Shown: positions 9,828 to 43,452 of the stretch, one piece after another
How positions within the stretch are numbered: position 1 is the first letter of the stretch
How the letters are laid out: each line of letters opens with the position of its first letter
From: a virus
Direction: 5' to 3' (one strand)
IMG/VR virus record: IMGVR_UViG_3300028025_004645
Location: 1-44,639 of that record
DNA length: 44,639 nt
Made by a program: the position numbers and the translations under genes
The notes under the pieces: generated by a model
Databases searched by the model: none
What the model saw: only the letters and a program-made list of their open reading frames with translations
What the model was told of the DNA's origin: nothing

Positions 9828-10538
9828 ATGTCTGCGACTGTGATTTTACCAACTACTGGTGTACCAGAGTTGAAAAGTGCTGTTCAAAGTGTACTTGAAC
9901 AAACTTATGAAACTAAATGTTATGTTGTTGCTGATGGTGTAAAATACCATTCAAAAACTAGGTTAATAACAGATGATTTTTTAAGCCGAAAAAATCTAGA
10001 AAGATGTTATTTACCAATCAATGTTGGTGCCAATGGCTTTTATGGCCACCGAACATATGCAGCCTTCACGCATTTAGTTGACACAAAATATGTTTTGTAT
10101 CTTGACCAAGATTGTTGGTTAGATCCAGAACACGTTCAAAATTGTATTGATACTATTGAAAAAAACAATTTAGATTGGTCCTATTCACTTAGAAAAATCT
10201 GTGATAAAGATGGTAACTACATAACAAATGATGATTGTGAATCATTAGGTAAATGGCAATCTTATCATGGCATTAATCATATAGATACTAATTGCTATTG
10301 CCTCAAGACTGAAATTGCGATAAAATTAGCACAAGTATGGCATGGTGGTTGGGGTCAAGATAGAGTTTGGTTACAAGCTCTTTCACAATACTTTCCTAAT
10401 TTTGATTGCACCGGTAAGTATACAGTCAACTATAGAGTAGATGGTAATCCTGGTTCAGTTAATGCAGACTTCTTTCGCAATGGTAATAAAACAATGAATG
10501 AAAAATATAATGGAGTTTTCCCGTGGCAAAAAACTTAA
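9828..10538 (+). CDS. Family 2-type glycosyltransferase
   Basis: This 236-residue protein is a compact GT-A glycosyltransferase. The start MSATVILPTTGVPELKSAVQSVL and EQTY give the nucleotide-sugar-binding Rossmann-like half, and YVLYLDQDCWLDPEH carries the metal-binding DxD as DQD. Later GGWGQDRVW fits the acceptor-side region. An AGAGGA ribosome binding site lies just upstream of the ATG. It is the first gene of the sugar cluster 9828-16423, and its last 16 bases overlap the next gene. The sugar and acceptor cannot be read from the sequence. Confidence 0.88.
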   Translation: MSATVILPTTGVPELKSAVQSVLEQTYETKCYVVADGVKYHSKTRLITDDFLSRKNLERCYLPINVGANGFYGHRTYAAFTHLVDTKYVLYLDQDCWLDPEHVQNCIDTIEKNNLDWSYSLRKICDKDGNYITNDDCESLGKWQSYHGINHIDTNCYCLKTEIAIKLAQVWHGGWGQDRVWLQALSQYFPNFDCTGKYTVNYRVDGNPGSVNADFFRNGNKTMNEKYNGVFPWQKT

Positions 10539-11383
10539 TAATCGGTGCATTTACAGGATACAACTACAATCAATTAAAACCATGGGTTGAGTCTATTGAT
10601 TCTTGTGGCTTTGTTGGTGACAAAGTGATGGTTGTTGGTGATGCATCGGAAGACACTAAAAAACAATTACTTAAACGTGGTTTTCAGTTACACAATATGC
10701 CAAGAATTAATGCACCAATTCATGTTGCAAGATTCTGGTCAATCTATGACTTTCTTTACAACAACTGGAAACAATATGACATTGTTGTGACCACGGATGT
10801 CAAAGATGTTTATTTTCAAAAAGATCCTTGCCAATGGATTGAAGAACATAGAGGCAATAAACAATTAGTTGCTGGTTCCGAATCATTGCGTTACAAAGAT
10901 GAATCTTGGGGTGATGAAAATCTGTTGCAGACCTATGGTCCAGAGGTTCACGAAAGATTCAAAAACAACATCATCTATAACGTAGGAACCTTTGGTGGTA
11001 GATCCAACTATGTTAGAGATATGTGTTTCAACATCTTCACCAATTCAATCAACAGGCCAATTCCTATCGTTGACCAGGCGGTCTATAATGTATTAATCAA
11101 CACACAACCTTACAAGGATAATGTGTTGTTCACTGACCACCAAGATGGATGGGCAGTACAACTCGGTACCACTGGTGACCCATCTAAGATGGAACGTTTT
11201 CAACCAAACTTAACCGAACTTGAACCACTATTTAATTACGATAAAAAAGTAATTACAACATCAGCCGGTGAACCACATTGTATTGTACATCAATATGATC
11301 GTGTTCCACTTTGGCAGAGTTTGGTTAGAAACATGTTTAACCAAGAAGACCCCAATCAATTTTTTACATATAGGACTGCATAA
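10523..11383 (+). CDS. Probable GT-A glycosyltransferase
   Basis: This 286-residue protein begins with a GTG codon (10523), supported by GGAG at 10512-10515. It opens AKNLIIGAFTGYNYNQLKPWVESI, a Rossmann-type strand and helix, and has YDIVVTTDVKDVYFQKDP (about residues 85-103), whose TDxxDxxF pattern is the metal/nucleotide site of GT8-like nucleotide-sugar transferases. YNVGTFGG and VHQYDR near the C-terminus fit the same fold. It overlaps its neighbours on both sides, so it is part of one translated unit. The substrate is unknown. Confidence 0.75.
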   Translation: MAKNLIIGAFTGYNYNQLKPWVESIDSCGFVGDKVMVVGDASEDTKKQLLKRGFQLHNMPRINAPIHVARFWSIYDFLYNNWKQYDIVVTTDVKDVYFQKDPCQWIEEHRGNKQLVAGSESLRYKDESWGDENLLQTYGPEVHERFKNNIIYNVGTFGGRSNYVRDMCFNIFTNSINRPIPIVDQAVYNVLINTQPYKDNVLFTDHQDGWAVQLGTTGDPSKMERFQPNLTELEPLFNYDKKVITTSAGEPHCIVHQYDRVPLWQSLVRNMFNQEDPNQFFTYRTA

Positions 11384-11943
11384 TGAGTGATATTATTAGA
11401 TTCAACACAGAGACCCAAGCGTTCACCGGATACCAAATGTGTTCTGGTTATGGTCTTGGTGCCATGATTAAAGACATGGTTAATCCTGTCGGTTTAGAAA
11501 TTGGTTGCGATATCGGCGACACAAGCAATTTTCTACTTGATTCCAATCCAACATTGAACCTAACATCTGTTGATCCATATACAACTTATGTTGATTGGAA
11601 TGGCAATCACCTTTCTGGTAGAGAAGAAATGTATCAAGGTGTAGTGAAACGAATGGCTGGTTATTCAAATCGTTTTGAATTGATTCGTAGAACATCAGAT
11701 GATGCAGTTGATTTGTTTGTAGATGAATATTTTGATATCATCTTTATTGATGGCCTACATACATACGAACAACTAACTAAAGACTGTGCAAATTACTATT
11801 CTAAGTTGAAACCAGGTGGTATTTTTGCAGGACATGATTTCACTGCAATTGAAGGTGTTAATCGTGCAGCCAAAGAATTCGCATCTACGGTTAAAAAAGA
11901 TATTCTTTTAACTGAAAAAGATGTTTGGTATTGGATAAAATAA
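11383..11943 (+). CDS. Class I SAM-dependent methyltransferase
   Basis: This 186-residue protein has the SAM-binding motif I as GLEIGCDIGDTSNFLL (about residues 32-47), the acidic residue after the second strand in LTSVDPYTTY, and motif IV-like FDIIFIDGLHTYEQLTKD, then LKPGGIFAGHDF. This is the layout of small Methyltransf_24-type enzymes that modify sugars. It starts on a TAATG junction. In this cluster it most likely methylates a sugar. Confidence 0.85.
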   Translation: MSDIIRFNTETQAFTGYQMCSGYGLGAMIKDMVNPVGLEIGCDIGDTSNFLLDSNPTLNLTSVDPYTTYVDWNGNHLSGREEMYQGVVKRMAGYSNRFELIRRTSDDAVDLFVDEYFDIIFIDGLHTYEQLTKDCANYYSKLKPGGIFAGHDFTAIEGVNRAAKEFASTVKKDILLTEKDVWYWIK

Positions 11944-11960
11944 TTATTGGAGATTTTATT

Positions 11961-12995
11961 ATGACTAAAAATGTTTTAATTACTGGTGGTTGTGGATTTA
12001 TTGCACACCACGTTATTGATTTGTTCCTTCAAAAAACTGATTGGAATATTACTACACTTGACCGATTAGATTATTCTGGTAATCTAAATCGTTTGAATGA
12101 AGTCATGGAGAAATATGATGCACAAACAAAGAAACGTGTTAATATTGTTTTCCATGACCTAAAGGCTGAGATTAATCCTTTGGTTGGCAATTTCATTCAT
12201 AAGAATGGAAAGATTGACACCATTCTACATCTTGCGGCTTCATCACATGTTGACCGTTCCATCACACATCCAATGGAGTTTATACAAGACAACACCATTG
12301 GTACTGCACACTTACTTGAATTTGCTCGTAGACTGGATAGTTTAGAAACATTCTTGTATTTCAGTACAGATGAAATCTTTGGTTCAGCACCTCCTGGTGT
12401 TGCATATACCGAACGTGCAAGATACAATTCAACTAATCCATATTCCGCATCTAAAGCAGCCGCAGAAGAATTCTGTGTTGCATATGAAAACACATATAAG
12501 ATGCCTATGATGATTACACATACAATGAATGTGTTCGGTGAACGTCAAACTCCTGAGAAATTTATTCCTTTGTGTATTGACCGTGTTCGCAAAGATGAAA
12601 AGATTTATATTCACTCAAATGCAGCTCGTACAGAAGCTGGCAGTCGTTTCTATATTCACGCCGCAGATGTAGCCGAAGCACTCTTGTTTTTGATTACAAA
12701 GAAACCTGCTTCTCCAACTGATTACGGTGATGCAAAATGTGCTAAATTTAACATTGTTGGTAAAGAAGAAGTTGACAATTTAACACTCGCTAAACTTGTG
12801 GCACAAGCACAAGGAAAAGAATTGATTTATGAAATGATTGATTTCCATAATTCAAGGCCAGGACATGACTTACGTTATGCACTTGATGGTAGTTTGATGC
12901 GTAGTCTTGGTTGGGAACCAACAATTGCATTTAGTGAAAGAATTAAACAAGTGAGTGATTGGTACTTGCAGAATACAAGGTGGTTGGAACTATGA
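11961..12995 (+). CDS. NAD-dependent sugar epimerase/dehydratase, RmlB-like
   Basis: This 344-residue short-chain dehydrogenase acts on nucleotide sugars. It has the NAD-binding GGCGFIAHHVID at the N-terminus, FYFSTDEIFGSAPPG and NPYSASKAAAEEFC, giving the S/T-Y-K catalytic set with YxxxK. The STDE(I/V)xG motif is typical of dTDP-glucose 4,6-dehydratases and relatives. I placed the start at the ATG 11961 (MTKNVLITGG), which has GGAG about 8 nt upstream, instead of an upstream in-frame codon lacking one. It overlaps the C-methyltransferase gene by four bases, and a 4-keto sugar would be that enzyme's substrate. Confidence 0.92.
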   Translation: MTKNVLITGGCGFIAHHVIDLFLQKTDWNITTLDRLDYSGNLNRLNEVMEKYDAQTKKRVNIVFHDLKAEINPLVGNFIHKNGKIDTILHLAASSHVDRSITHPMEFIQDNTIGTAHLLEFARRLDSLETFLYFSTDEIFGSAPPGVAYTERARYNSTNPYSASKAAAEEFCVAYENTYKMPMMITHTMNVFGERQTPEKFIPLCIDRVRKDEKIYIHSNAARTEAGSRFYIHAADVAEALLFLITKKPASPTDYGDAKCAKFNIVGKEEVDNLTLAKLVAQAQGKELIYEMIDFHNSRPGHDLRYALDGSLMRSLGWEPTIAFSERIKQVSDWYLQNTRWLEL

Positions 12996-14206
12996 ATACA
13001 GATTATGAAGTAATTAATGAGTGTATTGCTTGTGGCAGTACAGATTTGGTACCCGTATTAGACTTGGGTGCTCAGCCTTTGGCCAATTCTTATAAGAAAA
13101 ATGCCAATGATGAGGAACAATATTTTCCACTTGCAATCAATCATTGCAATCATTGTTTCCATGTACAACTAACACACAGAGTTAATCCGGATTTGATGTT
13201 CAAAGATTATCTATATGTTTCTGGTACAACAAAAACACAACTAGACTACTTTGATTGGTTTGCTGACTTTGCGGCCGAGAAGTATGGTTCTAAGCCAACT
13301 AATGCACTTGACATTGGTTGTAATGATGGTAGTCAATTAAACTATTTTCAAGACAAAGGTGCCACAACTTATGGTGTTGACCCAGCAGAAAATTTGTTTG
13401 CAACTTCTTCAAAAAGACATAAGGTTGTCTGTGGATACTTCACAGGTAAAGAATTCGGACATGAAAAGTTTGATGTAATTACCTGTCAAAATGCGTTTGC
13501 ACACAACTTCAACCAGCTCGAGTTACTGCAAAATATTAGGAATGTTATGCACAACGACAGCCTATTGTTTGCAACGACCTCTCAATGTGATATGATTCTA
13601 AATGGTGAGTTTGATACAATTTACCATGAACATCTGTCATTTTACAATGTGAAATCTATTGATGCACTATGTAAACGGGCTGGTTTGAATTTGATTGATG
13701 TTGTTAAATCACCTGTTCATGGTATGAGTTACATTTTCATCATTTCAAAATTTGCAAAAGCACCACGTACAATACAGAACCTAATTGATATTGAAACACA
13801 AAAGGGTCTGTACAATGAAAAAACTTATGAGGCCTATGCACAGAATTGTTTGAGTAATGTTAAACAGTTTGCTGAAATCATTAGGGAAATGAGAAGCACA
13901 GGTGTACCTGTTGTTGGCTATGGTGCGCCAGCCAAAGGCAACACATTAATGAATTTTGCACAAGAAGCTCCAGATTTTATTATTGATGATAATCCTCTGA
14001 AACAGGAAATGTTTACACCAGGCAATTCTGTTCCAATTTACGGAACCGATTATCTAAAATCCAATTTTGAAAATGTAGATAAATTGTGTATTATTCCTCT
14101 TGCATGGAATTTCTTCAAAGAAATTAAGACTAGAACTAAAAATGTGAGACCAGGTAAAAATGATATTTTTGTTCGTTACTTTCCAGAATTTAAGGTAGAA
14201 GAATGA
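12992..14206 (+). CDS. Sugar C-methyltransferase (zinc-binding, TylC3/NovU type)
   Basis: This 404-residue protein has the three-part layout of NDP-sugar C-methyltransferases. First comes a zinc-binding N-terminus (CIACGSTD ... HCNHCFHVQL), then a SAM domain (ALDIGCNDGSQLNYF, TYGVDPAENL, and the conserved YHEHLSFYN). Last is a C-terminal domain with GYGAPAKGNTLMNF and FIIDDNP. Known members add a methyl to C-3 or C-5 of 4-keto deoxysugars to form branched sugars. It is translationally coupled (ATGA) to the RmlB-like gene, a sensible enzyme order. I set the start at 12992 because the longer form reads back into the upstream gene. Confidence 0.9.
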   Translation: MNTDYEVINECIACGSTDLVPVLDLGAQPLANSYKKNANDEEQYFPLAINHCNHCFHVQLTHRVNPDLMFKDYLYVSGTTKTQLDYFDWFADFAAEKYGSKPTNALDIGCNDGSQLNYFQDKGATTYGVDPAENLFATSSKRHKVVCGYFTGKEFGHEKFDVITCQNAFAHNFNQLELLQNIRNVMHNDSLLFATTSQCDMILNGEFDTIYHEHLSFYNVKSIDALCKRAGLNLIDVVKSPVHGMSYIFIISKFAKAPRTIQNLIDIETQKGLYNEKTYEAYAQNCLSNVKQFAEIIREMRSTGVPVVGYGAPAKGNTLMNFAQEAPDFIIDDNPLKQEMFTPGNSVPIYGTDYLKSNFENVDKLCIIPLAWNFFKEIKTRTKNVRPGKNDIFVRYFPEFKVEE

Positions 14207-14928
14207 GTAATTTGATTATATGTCCAGTTGGCATGGAAATGCCACATGATCCTCGATGGAAAAAGGAAGACCATTGGCGTTGGACAAACAATGATAGAAA
14301 ATACGAAACTCTCCTTGTGGTCTACAATGATTTTGAACCTGAACCTGGTTCTTATGACCACCTCATTCGTCACAAAGGTCATAAGTGGCAAATCATGCAG
14401 ACTGTTGCAAAAGACATTCCTCTTGGTAAGTACAAATACATTGGATGTGTCGATGATGACCTGATTACTGGTTATCAAGACTTCAATAAAGGTTTAGAGT
14501 TGGCCGAGAAGTTTAACTTTCAGTACTGGCAACTTTCTATGCCGCACGATTCTAGTTTGATTTATCAACCACTATTCAATGATCCTTCTTGTGACTTTTC
14601 GGAAACAAACTTCATTGAAATGGGTTCTTGCTTCTTCACCGAAGAAAAATTCAGATTCTTGATGGAGTTTATTGGCCATTGGGACTTAGAAATTGCATGG
14701 GGTATTGATAAGACATTCTATGATTTGTTTCAATGTCCAGCTCATGTGGTACATTCTGGTATGATTCATCAACCATTCCGTGATAGTTACTACGACAAGC
14801 AAAGAGCCATGGATGAAATGAATGACTATCTGTACAATAAGTATCCATCTATACTTAAACAACATTACAACCGTCAGTCCAATTTCATGGACAGACAAGA
14901 CACTTTGAAGAAGTTTAAATTGGCATGA
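14203..14928 (+). CDS. DUF707-like putative glycosyltransferase
   Basis: This 241-residue protein has IGCVDDDLITGYQDFNKGLELAEKF with a DDD in place of DxD, then FQYWQLSMPHDS, NFIEMGSCFFTEEKFRFLMEF and WDLEIAWGIDKTFYD ending in CPAHVVHSGMIHQ. The WGIDxxxxD followed by a conserved His region is characteristic of DUF707, a family assigned to glycosyltransferases. It overlaps both neighbours by four bases. The donor and acceptor are unknown. Confidence 0.75.
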   Translation: MSNLIICPVGMEMPHDPRWKKEDHWRWTNNDRKYETLLVVYNDFEPEPGSYDHLIRHKGHKWQIMQTVAKDIPLGKYKYIGCVDDDLITGYQDFNKGLELAEKFNFQYWQLSMPHDSSLIYQPLFNDPSCDFSETNFIEMGSCFFTEEKFRFLMEFIGHWDLEIAWGIDKTFYDLFQCPAHVVHSGMIHQPFRDSYYDKQRAMDEMNDYLYNKYPSILKQHYNRQSNFMDRQDTLKKFKLA

Positions 14929-15734
14929 AAAAATACCTATATTATCACATCTATTTGACAGAAGAAACAGGATGTTGGTACAATCATTTTTTGGAACAAG
15001 TCGTTGCAATTATTGATGCTGGCCTCTATACCGAAATGGAAAAGATGTTTGTTGTTTGCATTGGTAAAAAGAGTGAATTGGAATTATTCACAGGAATATG
15101 CAACACTTTTCCTAAGATTCAAATTCTAGAAACACTTTTCTTGGATGATGATAATGAGGAAAACCTTTCACTTGAACACGTTTCAACAATTGATTACAAA
15201 AATAAAAACTTGTATGATGAAACTTGGACACTGAAACACCTACAAGACCATGCAAAAAGAGAAGATGCTCACTTTCTATATTTTCATGCTAAAGGTATTA
15301 CTGTTCCTTGGAGAATGAGAGAACAAAAAATCTATTTACCTTATGTAAATTACTATTTCTGGAGAAAGTTTTTACAATGGGGTTGTATTGAGAACTGGAA
15401 ACTTTGTACAAACAAGTTATCGGACCACTCTGCATCTGGTGTCAACTTTGGAACCTGGCCTGTTCCACACTATTCTGGTGGTTTCTGGTGGTCAAAATCT
15501 GAATACATCAATAAACTTCCAGACATTAAAGAGAATGATTGGTGGGATAAGTTTAGGTCTGAGACACCACTAAACACATTCGATTCAAACAGAAATAAAC
15601 CAGAAATGTGGATAGGTACGAAACACAATGATGACTTTTTTAATATTGTGAGCCATCCTATTATGCCACCGCACGGAACATTGGTTCAGAATACATGGCC
15701 AAGATATTTTTATGAAGGCATGGTACAGAAATGA
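14925..15734 (+). CDS. Putative glycosyltransferase (HYSGGFWW type)
   Basis: This 269-residue protein has HFLYFHAKGITVPW in the middle and PVPHYSGGFWWSKSEYINKLP (about residues 177-197), followed by PEMWIG. HxSGxFWWxxxxYI is a recurring signature of short sugar transferases in phages and giant viruses, which is my only basis for the call. Trp and Tyr are abundant, as expected for sugar binding. Coupled by ATGA on both sides. Confidence 0.7.
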   Translation: MKKYLYYHIYLTEETGCWYNHFLEQVVAIIDAGLYTEMEKMFVVCIGKKSELELFTGICNTFPKIQILETLFLDDDNEENLSLEHVSTIDYKNKNLYDETWTLKHLQDHAKREDAHFLYFHAKGITVPWRMREQKIYLPYVNYYFWRKFLQWGCIENWKLCTNKLSDHSASGVNFGTWPVPHYSGGFWWSKSEYINKLPDIKENDWWDKFRSETPLNTFDSNRNKPEMWIGTKHNDDFFNIVSHPIMPPHGTLVQNTWPRYFYEGMVQK

Positions 15735-16423
15735 AGAATATCTTTTTAGTCACATCATGTATGCAACCAAAATTTGGTGTCATCAGCATGGAAGACAGGT
15801 ACAAACAAACATTAGAAACATTTGATAGTATTCGAAATAAGACAGAAGATTCTTTTATTCTATTCACCGATAGTTCACCAATACCTATTGAACAATATAA
15901 GTGGGACATTATAAAATCTAAAGTCGATTTGATTTTAAACCTAAGTGATGTTCCACAGGTTCAACAGTTTAATGAACACGAGCAGTTAAAGAGTTTTGGT
16001 GAAAATAATCTTGTATTGAGAAGTATTGGTTTCTTAAAAAGTAAGTATGACTTTAAGACAATACAAGGTAGAATGTTTAAATTGGGTGGTCGTGCTAAGT
16101 TACAAGACAATTTTAATATCAGAGATTATGACAACACCCATGGTAAATTCATATTCAAGAAACGATTGGCCAGTTGGATGCCTCCAGAAGTTCAAAGTCG
16201 GTTGGGGTCAACTCACATACTGGAAACAAGGATGTTTTCTTGGTGTACGTCTTTGGTGGATGAATATGAACAGATCCTACAAAACAATTTCCAGTTATTA
16301 AACATTGGCTTAGACACGGAACATTGCCATTTTCTTAATATTCCGAAAGATAAATTACTTGAATTCGATATGATGAATGTTGGAATGATGGTTGCCAGAA
16401 ACGGAGATTACATGCTCGACTAA
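15731..16423 (+). CDS. Putative glycosyltransferase-like protein, last of the sugar cluster
   Basis: This 230-residue protein opens MKNIFLVTSCMQPKFG and has SFILFTDSSPIPIEQYKWD, then KTIQGRMFKLGGRAKLQDNFNIRDYD and a FIFKKR strand, then TRMFSWCTSLVDEYE. The GR..L.D.F...DYD block is familiar from uncharacterised viral sugar-modifying proteins. No clean DxD is seen (TDSS may replace it), so the family assignment is tentative. Its stop codon sits inside a perfect inverted repeat (16417-16433), closing the cluster. Confidence 0.65.
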   Translation: MKNIFLVTSCMQPKFGVISMEDRYKQTLETFDSIRNKTEDSFILFTDSSPIPIEQYKWDIIKSKVDLILNLSDVPQVQQFNEHEQLKSFGENNLVLRSIGFLKSKYDFKTIQGRMFKLGGRAKLQDNFNIRDYDNTHGKFIFKKRLASWMPPEVQSRLGSTHILETRMFSWCTSLVDEYEQILQNNFQLLNIGLDTEHCHFLNIPKDKLLEFDMMNVGMMVARNGDYMLD

Positions 16424-41521: not shown

Positions 41522-41662
41522 ATGAGTTTAAGTGATTGGTCATTTTTTTTATTTGTTTTTCTTTGTTTCTTTTTATTTTGGGGTGAACCTGATGTATGGG
41601 ACAAAGCTCATGAACACACAATGCAAATACTGGAACCAAAATCTTGTACGTCTGAATTGTGA
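41522..41662 (+). CDS. Tiny membrane protein
   Basis: A 46-residue protein with one very hydrophobic, Phe-rich segment (WSFFLFVFLCFFLFW) near the N-terminus and a short acidic soluble tail. It would sit in the host inner membrane. Its last codons overlap the Pho-box-like repeat upstream of the phosphoesterase gene. Confidence 0.6.
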   Translation: MSLSDWSFFLFVFLCFFLFWGEPDVWDKAHEHTMQILEPKSCTSEL

Positions 41663-41674
41663 CAGTTTTGTTAC
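41657..41674 (+). promoter_or_regulatory. Pho-box-like direct repeat upstream of the plcP-like gene
   Basis: TTGTGAC (41657-41663), AGTT and TTGTTAC (41668-41674): two 7-mers repeating every 11 bp, the geometry of a PhoB-binding Pho box (CTGTCAT, four bases, CTGTCAT). Each unit matches the consensus at 4-5 of 7 positions, depending on whether T or C is taken at position 7. It lies 26 bp before the ATG at 41700. No convincing -10 follows at the right distance, so this remains a candidate. Confidence 0.3.
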
Positions 41675-41699
41675 TAATTCCTGGAATTCTACATAATAG

Positions 41700-42497
41700 A
41701 TGACCAAAAAAACTTATCGTTCAATCTTTATTTCAGATGTACATCTTGGGACAAAAGACTGTCAAGCCGAGAAGTTGAACAATTTTCTCAAAAATAATTC
41801 ATGTGAAACGTTATATCTAATTGGTGATATAATAGACGCATGGAGAATACAACAAAACAAATGGCGTTGGAAACAATCACACACTAACGTGGTACGTAGA
41901 GTGTTGGGCCACGCAAAAAAAGGAACTCGTGTACTGTACATTGCAGGCAATCACGATGAATTCCTAAGACCAATGATACCATATGGTTTCAGTTTTGGTC
42001 TAATAGAAATACACAATCAAATGGAACACATTGGTGTAGATGGTAAACACTATCTTGTTATTCATGGTGATTTGTTTGATGGCATCACCAGACTTGCACC
42101 GTGGTTAGCATTTTTAGGAGATAAGGCATATGATATTATCCTTTCTATCAATAGTAAATTTAATTGGATTCGTCACCGTATGGGTTTTGGGTACTTTAGC
42201 CTTAGCCAGTTTCTTAAGCACAAGGTCAAAAAAGCAGTAGACTTCATATTTCATTTTGAAAAGAATCTAACTGCATACTGCAAGAAACGTGGATTTGATG
42301 GTGTTATCTGTGGCCATATACACCATGCAGAGATAAAAGAAATTGACGGCATGATATATATGAACGATGGTGACTGGGTTGAATCTTGTACTGCACTGGT
42401 TGAACACCACGATGGCCGTTGGGAAATAATAACATGGACACAGAGCAATGACAAAGAAGATACTGATAATAACGGACAACTTACCGAATCAAATTAA
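41700..42497 (+). CDS. plcP: PlcP-like phospholipase C (metallophosphoesterase, LpxH-related)
   Basis: This 265-residue protein is a complete calcineurin-type phosphoesterase: FISDVHLG (D13, H15), YLIGDIIDAW (D43), IAGNHDEFLR (N84, H85), VIHGDLFD and ICGHIHHA. The later parts FLGDKAYD, VKKAVDFIFHFE and MNDGDWVESCTALVEHHDGR match, from memory, the family of Sinorhizobium PlcP rather than E. coli LpxH. PlcP cleaves membrane phospholipids to diacylglycerol under phosphate starvation. These proteins are often annotated UDP-2,3-diacylglucosamine diphosphatase, so LpxH-type activity is the alternative. It overlaps the glycosyltransferase gene by 50 bases. There is no clear Shine-Dalgarno; a Pho-box-like repeat is upstream. 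Confidence 0.8.
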   Translation: MTKKTYRSIFISDVHLGTKDCQAEKLNNFLKNNSCETLYLIGDIIDAWRIQQNKWRWKQSHTNVVRRVLGHAKKGTRVLYIAGNHDEFLRPMIPYGFSFGLIEIHNQMEHIGVDGKHYLVIHGDLFDGITRLAPWLAFLGDKAYDIILSINSKFNWIRHRMGFGYFSLSQFLKHKVKKAVDFIFHFEKNLTAYCKKRGFDGVICGHIHHAEIKEIDGMIYMNDGDWVESCTALVEHHDGRWEIITWTQSNDKEDTDNNGQLTESN

Positions 42498-43452
42498 TGG
42501 CGTTGTTACGACCTATAAAAATATTGAGGCTCGTGCGATTCTGGACGGTTATAACGTTGTTTACATTACTCCCGGGGACTTCCGCTACTTTGATTGTCCT
42601 GGCTACAACGAAGTCAAGATTGCCTTTCCCATGGAGATGGGCAAGAAGATTGAGGAGATCAATCCGGATTATATCCATATCGCCACAGAGGGTCCTGTGG
42701 GTCTGTGGGCTAGAAAATATCTTTCAAAACATAATCTTAGGTACAATACTGCTTATCATACTAAGTTCCCTGAAGGACTTAGAGCCTTATTTGGTATCCC
42801 TGAAAGCCTTACTTGGCCTTTAGTACGTTGGTTTCATAAACACTCAGGCAAAGTCTTGACCACAACAGAAACGATGGTCAAAGATTTACACGACCACGGG
42901 TTCAAACAAAACATATTACCTTGGACCCGTGGAGTAGATAGAGATATCTTTAATAATTCTCAGCGTATTGCCAGCGCTTCCGGAGGCCCCACCCTTGTTT
43001 GTGTTTCCAGAGTTTCAAAAGAAAAGAACCTCGATGACTTCTGCAAGATACAATATCCAGGTGCCAGAAAAATAATGGTCGGCGATGGACCATATATGTC
43101 CGAGTTAGCCTTAAAGTATCCAGATGTTGAGTTCGTTGGTTTCAAGACTGGCAAAGAACTTGCATACTATTACGCAAACGCAGATGTGTTCGTATTCCCT
43201 TCAAAGTGGGAAACATTCGGCATCGTTATGATTGAGGCAATGGCTTGCGGTACACCAGTAGCTGCGTACCCAGCACCAGGACCTCTAGATGTGGTAGACA
43301 TTGGTAAGACTGGTTATCTTGGTGAGGACTTAAACTATGTTATCTCTTGCTGCTTGACACTGGATCGTAAAGATGTTATAATACATTCAAACAAATGGTC
43401 CTGGCAAAAAGCATGGGAAATATTCAGAGATAACCTAGTAACATTAAGATGA
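42448..43452 (+). CDS. agt: Agt-like GT4 glycosyltransferase (glycolipid synthesis)
   Basis: This 334-residue GT-B enzyme has the N-terminal ILIITDNLPNQINGVVTTYK, ATEGPVGLWARKYL, YHTKFPEGLRA, a C-terminal VCVSRVSKEKN and MVGDGP, and the EX7E donor site WETFGIVMIEAM followed by ACGTPVAAYPAPGP. This is the form of MgtA-like GT4 proteins, including Agt, which transfers a sugar to diacylglycerol. In bacteria agt lies next to plcP, as here. The ATG at 42448 is inside plcP; the first residues are needed for the fold, so the 50-base overlap is real and implies coupled translation. Confidence 0.85.
   Translation: MTKKILIITDNLPNQINGVVTTYKNIEARAILDGYNVVYITPGDFRYFDCPGYNEVKIAFPMEMGKKIEEINPDYIHIATEGPVGLWARKYLSKHNLRYNTAYHTKFPEGLRALFGIPESLTWPLVRWFHKHSGKVLTTTETMVKDLHDHGFKQNILPWTRGVDRDIFNNSQRIASASGGPTLVCVSRVSKEKNLDDFCKIQYPGARKIMVGDGPYMSELALKYPDVEFVGFKTGKELAYYYANADVFVFPSKWETFGIVMIEAMACGTPVAAYPAPGPLDVVDIGKTGYLGEDLNYVISCCLTLDRKDVIIHSNKWSWQKAWEIFRDNLVTLR

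Follow-up and report, generated by a model that had tools for sequence, protein, structure and literature searches.

A PlcP-type phosphoesterase and an Agt-like glycosyltransferase encoded side by side in a T4-like phage fragment: a possible membrane-lipid operon for phosphate scavenging

Introduction

When phosphate is scarce, bacteria use the gene pair plcP-agt to replace phosphate-containing membrane lipids with sugar lipids. A similar pair was noticed in a virus fragment, IMG/VR record IMGVR_UViG_3300028025_004645, and the whole stretch of 44,639 nucleotides (hereafter the window) was analysed. The initial annotation read the pair as a lipid-remodelling module that frees membrane phosphate for phage DNA synthesis or alters the envelope, and knew of no description of such an operon working in a phage. 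We asked whether the two genes are what they appear to be, whether they belong to one pathway, and whether that pathway is connected with phosphate. The gene structure was confirmed. The interpretation was supported at the level of families, context and, in related phages, regulation, while the enzyme activities, the sugar donor, the control by PhoB and the benefit to the phage are inferred. The statement that no phage plcP-agt operon has been described was not contradicted by our literature searches, although these did not cover most subscription papers and preprints. Papers on terrestrial phage phosphate genes and on Limnohabitans phages likewise contained no mention of plcP or of this lipid pathway.

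Results

Two overlapping genes in a T4-like phage fragment

The window carries T4-type genes, including a DNA polymerase gp43 about 51% identical to that of a Synechococcus myophage, UvsX, T4 RNase H, ThyX and NrdA. The following features were identified at the locus.

41657..41674 (+): degenerate Pho-box-like direct repeat TTGTGAC-AGTT-TTGTTAC, 43 bp before the plcP start
41690..41697 (+): TACATAAT, possible -10 element directly before the start codon (function inferred)
41700..42497 (+): PlcP-type metallophosphoesterase of 265 aa, predicted phospholipase C acting on glycerophospholipids
42448..43452 (+): Agt-like GT4 glycosyltransferase of 334 aa, predicted to put a sugar on diacylglycerol
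42448..42497 (+): 50-nt overlap of the two reading frames, suggesting one transcript and coupled translation

The first protein contains the motifs D13/H15, D43, N84/H85/D86, H122-G-D and G205-H-I-H-H209, and the metal ligands D13, H15, D43, N84, H85, H122, H206 and H208 are invariant in all 164 viral sequences. The second protein contains E255-X7-E263. Pfam searches gave Metallophos (5e-11) for the former and Glycos_transf_1 (5e-25) and Glyco_transf_4 (4e-13) for the latter. The pair is not a chance arrangement: at least 596 viral stretches encode relatives of the first protein and 290 encode relatives of the second, and 78 of the 80 best GT loci have the phosphoesterase just upstream, the other two lying at contig ends. 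Both genes are under purifying selection (window against near relatives, dN/dS about 0.1 and about 0.2, respectively).

The phosphoesterase groups with PlcP and not with LpxH

Public annotation names this protein UDP-2,3-diacylglucosamine diphosphatase, that is LpxH, an enzyme of lipid A synthesis. The Pfam superfamily and the closest solved folds are also those of LpxH, and a structure model showed an LpxH-like fold with moderate confidence. However, PlcP and LpxH share a fold, so the fold match does not decide and the model was uninformative on substrate. When the two NCBIfam LpxH equivalog models were applied, the window protein scored 47.3 and 39.0 bits, against cut-offs of 134 and 190.35. 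Pseudomonas aeruginosa PlcP scored 55 and 44 bits in the same test, indicating that this is what a true PlcP looks like. The window protein is 55% identical to P. aeruginosa PlcP (PA3219) over 237 residues. In a phylogenetic tree, LpxH sequences from genomes that also hold a PlcP-type gene formed a separate clade with 99% support, and the window protein, the phage proteins and PlcP lay on the other side, within which the phage branch order is poorly resolved. The LpxH reading is therefore very unlikely.

The P. aeruginosa reference was taken from a plasmid record (pHPA0698-2). It was assigned to PA3219/PA3218 because a gene annotated as UDP-diacylglucosamine diphosphatase and a glycosyltransferase gene overlap there by 4 nt next to an adenylate cyclase gene, which appears to be the order in PAO1 (cyaB = PA3217). 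A block that looks like the chromosomal plcP-agt1 region is found on this plasmid and in two further plasmid records. A Sinorhizobium meliloti hit on pSymB was not taken as the characterised PlcP, because gene and locus were not matched.

The glycosyltransferase is Agt-like but carries an altered catalytic motif

The glycosyltransferase is 38% identical to P. aeruginosa Agt1 (PA3218) over its full length (331 residues). The PA3219/PA3218 pair was shown experimentally to make glycolipids, PA3218 making MGDG in a PlcP-dependent pathway (PMC8528852). In a tree, the phage GT4 proteins formed one clade with 100% support and a long stem, nested among bacterial Agts. The LPS transferases WaaG/WaaB and the MgtA of an Acinetobacter phage fell outside; because of long branches, only the grouping was used.

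Of 14 residues reported as essential in SAR11 GTcp (PMC8231724), 13 are kept in the window: G16, G82, G85, H104, T162, R163, R190, K195, T257, F258, G259, E264 and W320. T162 and R163 are each present in 115 of 116 phage copies and the rest in all. The exception is Asp256, which forms the catalytic dyad with His104 and lies within FPSxTDTFG. The phage motif is FPSxWETFG in 115 of 116 copies and LPSRWETFG in one, so that Glu, preceded by Trp, is found in all 116, while 55-56 of 57 bacterial Agts have Thr-Asp and 56 of 57 bacterial rows have Asp. The one bacterial exception is from a Limnohabitans MAG. The D256E mutation cost GTcp more than 90% of its activity (PMC8231724), so the phage enzyme must be compensated or altered, and its donor or acceptor may differ. 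We therefore call this protein Agt-like and not Agt. The GT4 of one near relative (locus L028, 5883-6884; individual loci are designated L with a number) looks chimeric: its last two thirds are nearly identical to those of the window, whereas its N-terminal part resembles another lineage, suggesting recombination inside the gene.

The phosphoesterase is followed by one of two unrelated glycosyltransferases

A genome scan returned bacterial relatives of the phosphoesterase with 49-59% identity, nearly all from Alpha-, Beta- and Gammaproteobacteria. In 61 of the 80 nearest, by our count, a GT4 with 37-44% identity follows directly. The phages thus hold an old capture of a bacterial operon. A plcP-like gene on a long branch in a Methylotenera MAG (L170, 4874-6744) abuts an ORF that looks phage-like and is possibly a prophage copy.

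After removal of duplicates, 127 distinct viral loci with the phosphoesterase remained. A GT4 follows in 91 and a GT2 of about 237 aa (Pfam Glycos_transf_2, 2e-19) follows in 34, for example L012 (5627-6343), L020 (3245-3955) and L049 (5901-6623). None has both, and the two with neither end at the contig edge. These proportions are biased, because half of the loci were found through the GT4. On the plcP tree the partner changes 9 times, with at least 7 changes forced by well-supported branches. One phosphoesterase with one of two unrelated glycosyltransferases, exchanged repeatedly, is what a two-step pathway predicts.

No bacterial source of the GT2 was found among the genomes searched: in 185 genomes of the class of a Limnohabitans genome there were only relatives of 24-32% identity, and none was near plcP among the best 12. 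A structure model of the GT2 showed a GT-A fold with moderate confidence but was uninformative on substrate. A contig deposited as faecal phage (L004, 3781-5705) has a PlcP-like gene (43%) followed by an unrelated glycosyltransferase (Pfam Glyco_trans_1_3), a third kind of partner, probably from Bacteroidota.

It is conceivable that the two genes are not one pathway, with the GT glycosylating another target (LPS, phage DNA or a protein) and the phosphoesterase acting on something else. The long stem and altered catalytic motif of the phage GT4 clade would fit this view, as would the alternative partner, a GT2 of unknown acceptor whose nearest solved folds are wall-teichoic-acid and sugar transferases. 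On the other hand, the strict partnering, nearly always next to plcP, the repeated exchange, and the retention of the residues reported to contact DAG in GTcp (H104, T162, R163 and W320; PMC8231724) speak against it, and we consider it unlikely.

Phosphate genes lie beside the pair in related phages

pstS is present within about 4 kb of plcP in 27 of the 127 loci, always on the same strand and typically just upstream of plcP. Among 29 long contigs, 8 hold a PstS family match, and all 8 matches lie within about 4 kb of the pair. The chance of lying within 5 kb would be about 1e-9 if the contigs were independent, which they are not fully (pairwise PstS identity 48-98%). In four loci (L121, 223-2445; L162, 515-2731; L164, 787-2991; L165, 748-2961) a phoX gene lies directly before pstS, in the order phoX-pstS-plcP-GT4. 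It encodes a PhoX alkaline phosphatase of about 740 aa with a Tat signal (Pfam PhoX 2e-121 for L165) and has its own Pho-box-like repeat. PhoH is found in 12 of the 29 long contigs. The window itself has no pstS or phoX.

Two cultured phages carry a plcP-like gene annotated as UDP-2,3-diacylglucosamine hydrolase without a GT next to it. In the SAR11 phage Mosig (L002, 7992-8729) it is beside a putative phosphate-transporter gene, and in the Synechococcus phage S-SRM01 (L003, 3998-4702) it is near psbA.

Phage PstS is 75% identical to PstS of the Limnohabitans genome, but at most 57% identical to that of 96 genomes of the class of an alphaproteobacterium, Labrys. This was used only as a host hint. 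gp23 in 9 of the 29 long contigs confirms T4-like phages. Burkholderiales hosts are likely for those relatives, and the host of the window is inferred from them.

Pho-box-like repeats precede plcP and pstS in many related phages

The upstream regions were then searched for regulatory elements. The T4 late promoter TATAAATA was found in only 1 of 122 upstream regions and is not the answer. The strict E. coli Pho-box consensus gave only a weak excess. A relaxed form, YTGTMAY-N4-YTGTMAY, which has the layout of a PhoB box, occurs 49 times in 1.17 Mb of these loci, and 29 of these are within 200 bp upstream of plcP or pstS, against 0.5 expected from the density elsewhere. Although this consensus was relaxed after first inspection, spacing, half-site and held-out tests support it: twelve other spacings gave 0-1 and six scrambled half-sites gave 0. 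A matrix made only from the pstS boxes scored at least 10 at 48% of plcP starts and at 2.1% of 1364 other genes (p = 2e-21, rows not independent). About half of the plcP genes show no clear box.

The boxes mostly begin 34-56 bp before the start codon. A TAAATA often follows 11 or 21-22 nt later, about 10 nt before the ATG, so plcP may be read from an almost leaderless message. Other genes with strong boxes are phoX and a 214-aa family without a Pfam match (MRLEDLAVRLVAVEAKLA...), often next to plcP-GT2, in which scores reach 19.7 (L018, 6812-7459; L072, 6541-7185; L057, 4195-4842).

The window has TTGTGACAGTTTTGTTAC at 41657-41674. This repeat is degenerate and scores 11.9 with the pstS-box matrix, while the opposite strand (TAGTAAC-AAAA-CTGTCAC) scores 15.5, so its orientation is unclear. 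Near relatives keep the site only weakly (scores 6.8-8.2), so for the window itself regulation is unproven. The possible -10 element TACATAAT is conserved in the near relatives L007-L010, L028 and L094. A strong Pho-box-like repeat in opposite orientation is also present at 969-986 of the window, overlapping the start of the gp43 DNA polymerase gene. Host PhoBR control of cyanophage pstS, and PhoB binding to some other cyanophage promoters, including a gp43 promoter, have been established by others (PMC10976474).

Discussion

Taken together, these results make it likely that the pair is a phage-borne membrane-lipid remodelling module of the PlcP-Agt type, used when the infected cell is short of phosphate. 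In this model, the phosphoesterase cuts the phosphate-bearing head group off host glycerophospholipids and leaves diacylglycerol, and the overlapping GT4 enzyme puts a sugar from a UDP-sugar on that diacylglycerol, so that a glycolipid takes the place of the lost phospholipid and the membrane stays intact. The freed phosphate can be used for phage DNA. In related phages the module is replaceable at its second step, often lies in an island with pstS and sometimes phoX, and is probably switched on by the PhoB protein of the host.

Alternatively, the pair might change the charge, receptors or permeability of the host envelope to block superinfection, help lysis or resist membrane attack, with the freed phosphate being incidental. 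The same enzymes in P. aeruginosa change envelope properties such as polymyxin sensitivity (PMC8528852), and phages often modify envelopes. The window also contains, at 9828-16423, a cluster of a GT2, two methyltransferases, an epimerase-like protein and several short proteins without Pfam match, which looks like a glycan or surface modification cassette. However, the pstS and phoX neighbourhood and the Pho-box-like repeats point to phosphate supply and not to surface defence, and this alternative appears unlikely.

The pair shares with the bacterial PlcP-Agt pathway (Sinorhizobium, SAR11 HTCC7211 and P. aeruginosa) its gene order and overlapping or abutting frames, and Pho-box control has been described for bacteria. 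It differs in being carried by phages, in the replacement of the catalytic Asp of the GT by Glu preceded by Trp, and, in related phages, in the possible exchange of GT4 for GT2 and the joining to phage pstS/phoX. With phage phosphate auxiliary genes under host PhoBR (cyanophage pstS, PMC10976474) the related loci share a phage gene for phosphate supply behind a Pho-box-like element next to pstS. Those genes concern uptake or recycling of phosphate, while here phosphate would come from the host's own membrane, with a replacement lipid made. LpxH shares the calcineurin-like fold and the automatic annotation, but forms a separate clade and has a different gene context.

Somewhat more likely than not, T4-like phages of presumably aquatic (probably largely Burkholderiales) bacteria carry a small Pho regulon of their own, consisting of phoX, pstS, plcP and an interchangeable diacylglycerol glycosyltransferase, each unit behind a PhoB box. 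Infected, phosphate-starved cells would then be made to dismantle membrane phospholipid for phage DNA phosphate while glycolipid fills the gap. The phage GT4 would be a distinct catalytic variant (WE for TD), and a GT2 would do the same job in sister phages. The repeated exchange of two unrelated glycosyltransferases beside one phosphoesterase makes the function of the GT2 directly testable.

Phage phosphate genes described so far in the papers we read concern uptake, signalling or nucleotide recycling. A survey of Lake Baikal viromes lists viral 'lpxH' (K03269) as an auxiliary gene under lipopolysaccharide biosynthesis, without connection to plcP, agt or phosphate (PMC9611531), and this may be the same viral gene family under another label. 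Our results suggest that 'lpxH' calls in virus surveys may hide a phosphate function, and that phages may mine the host membrane for phosphate.
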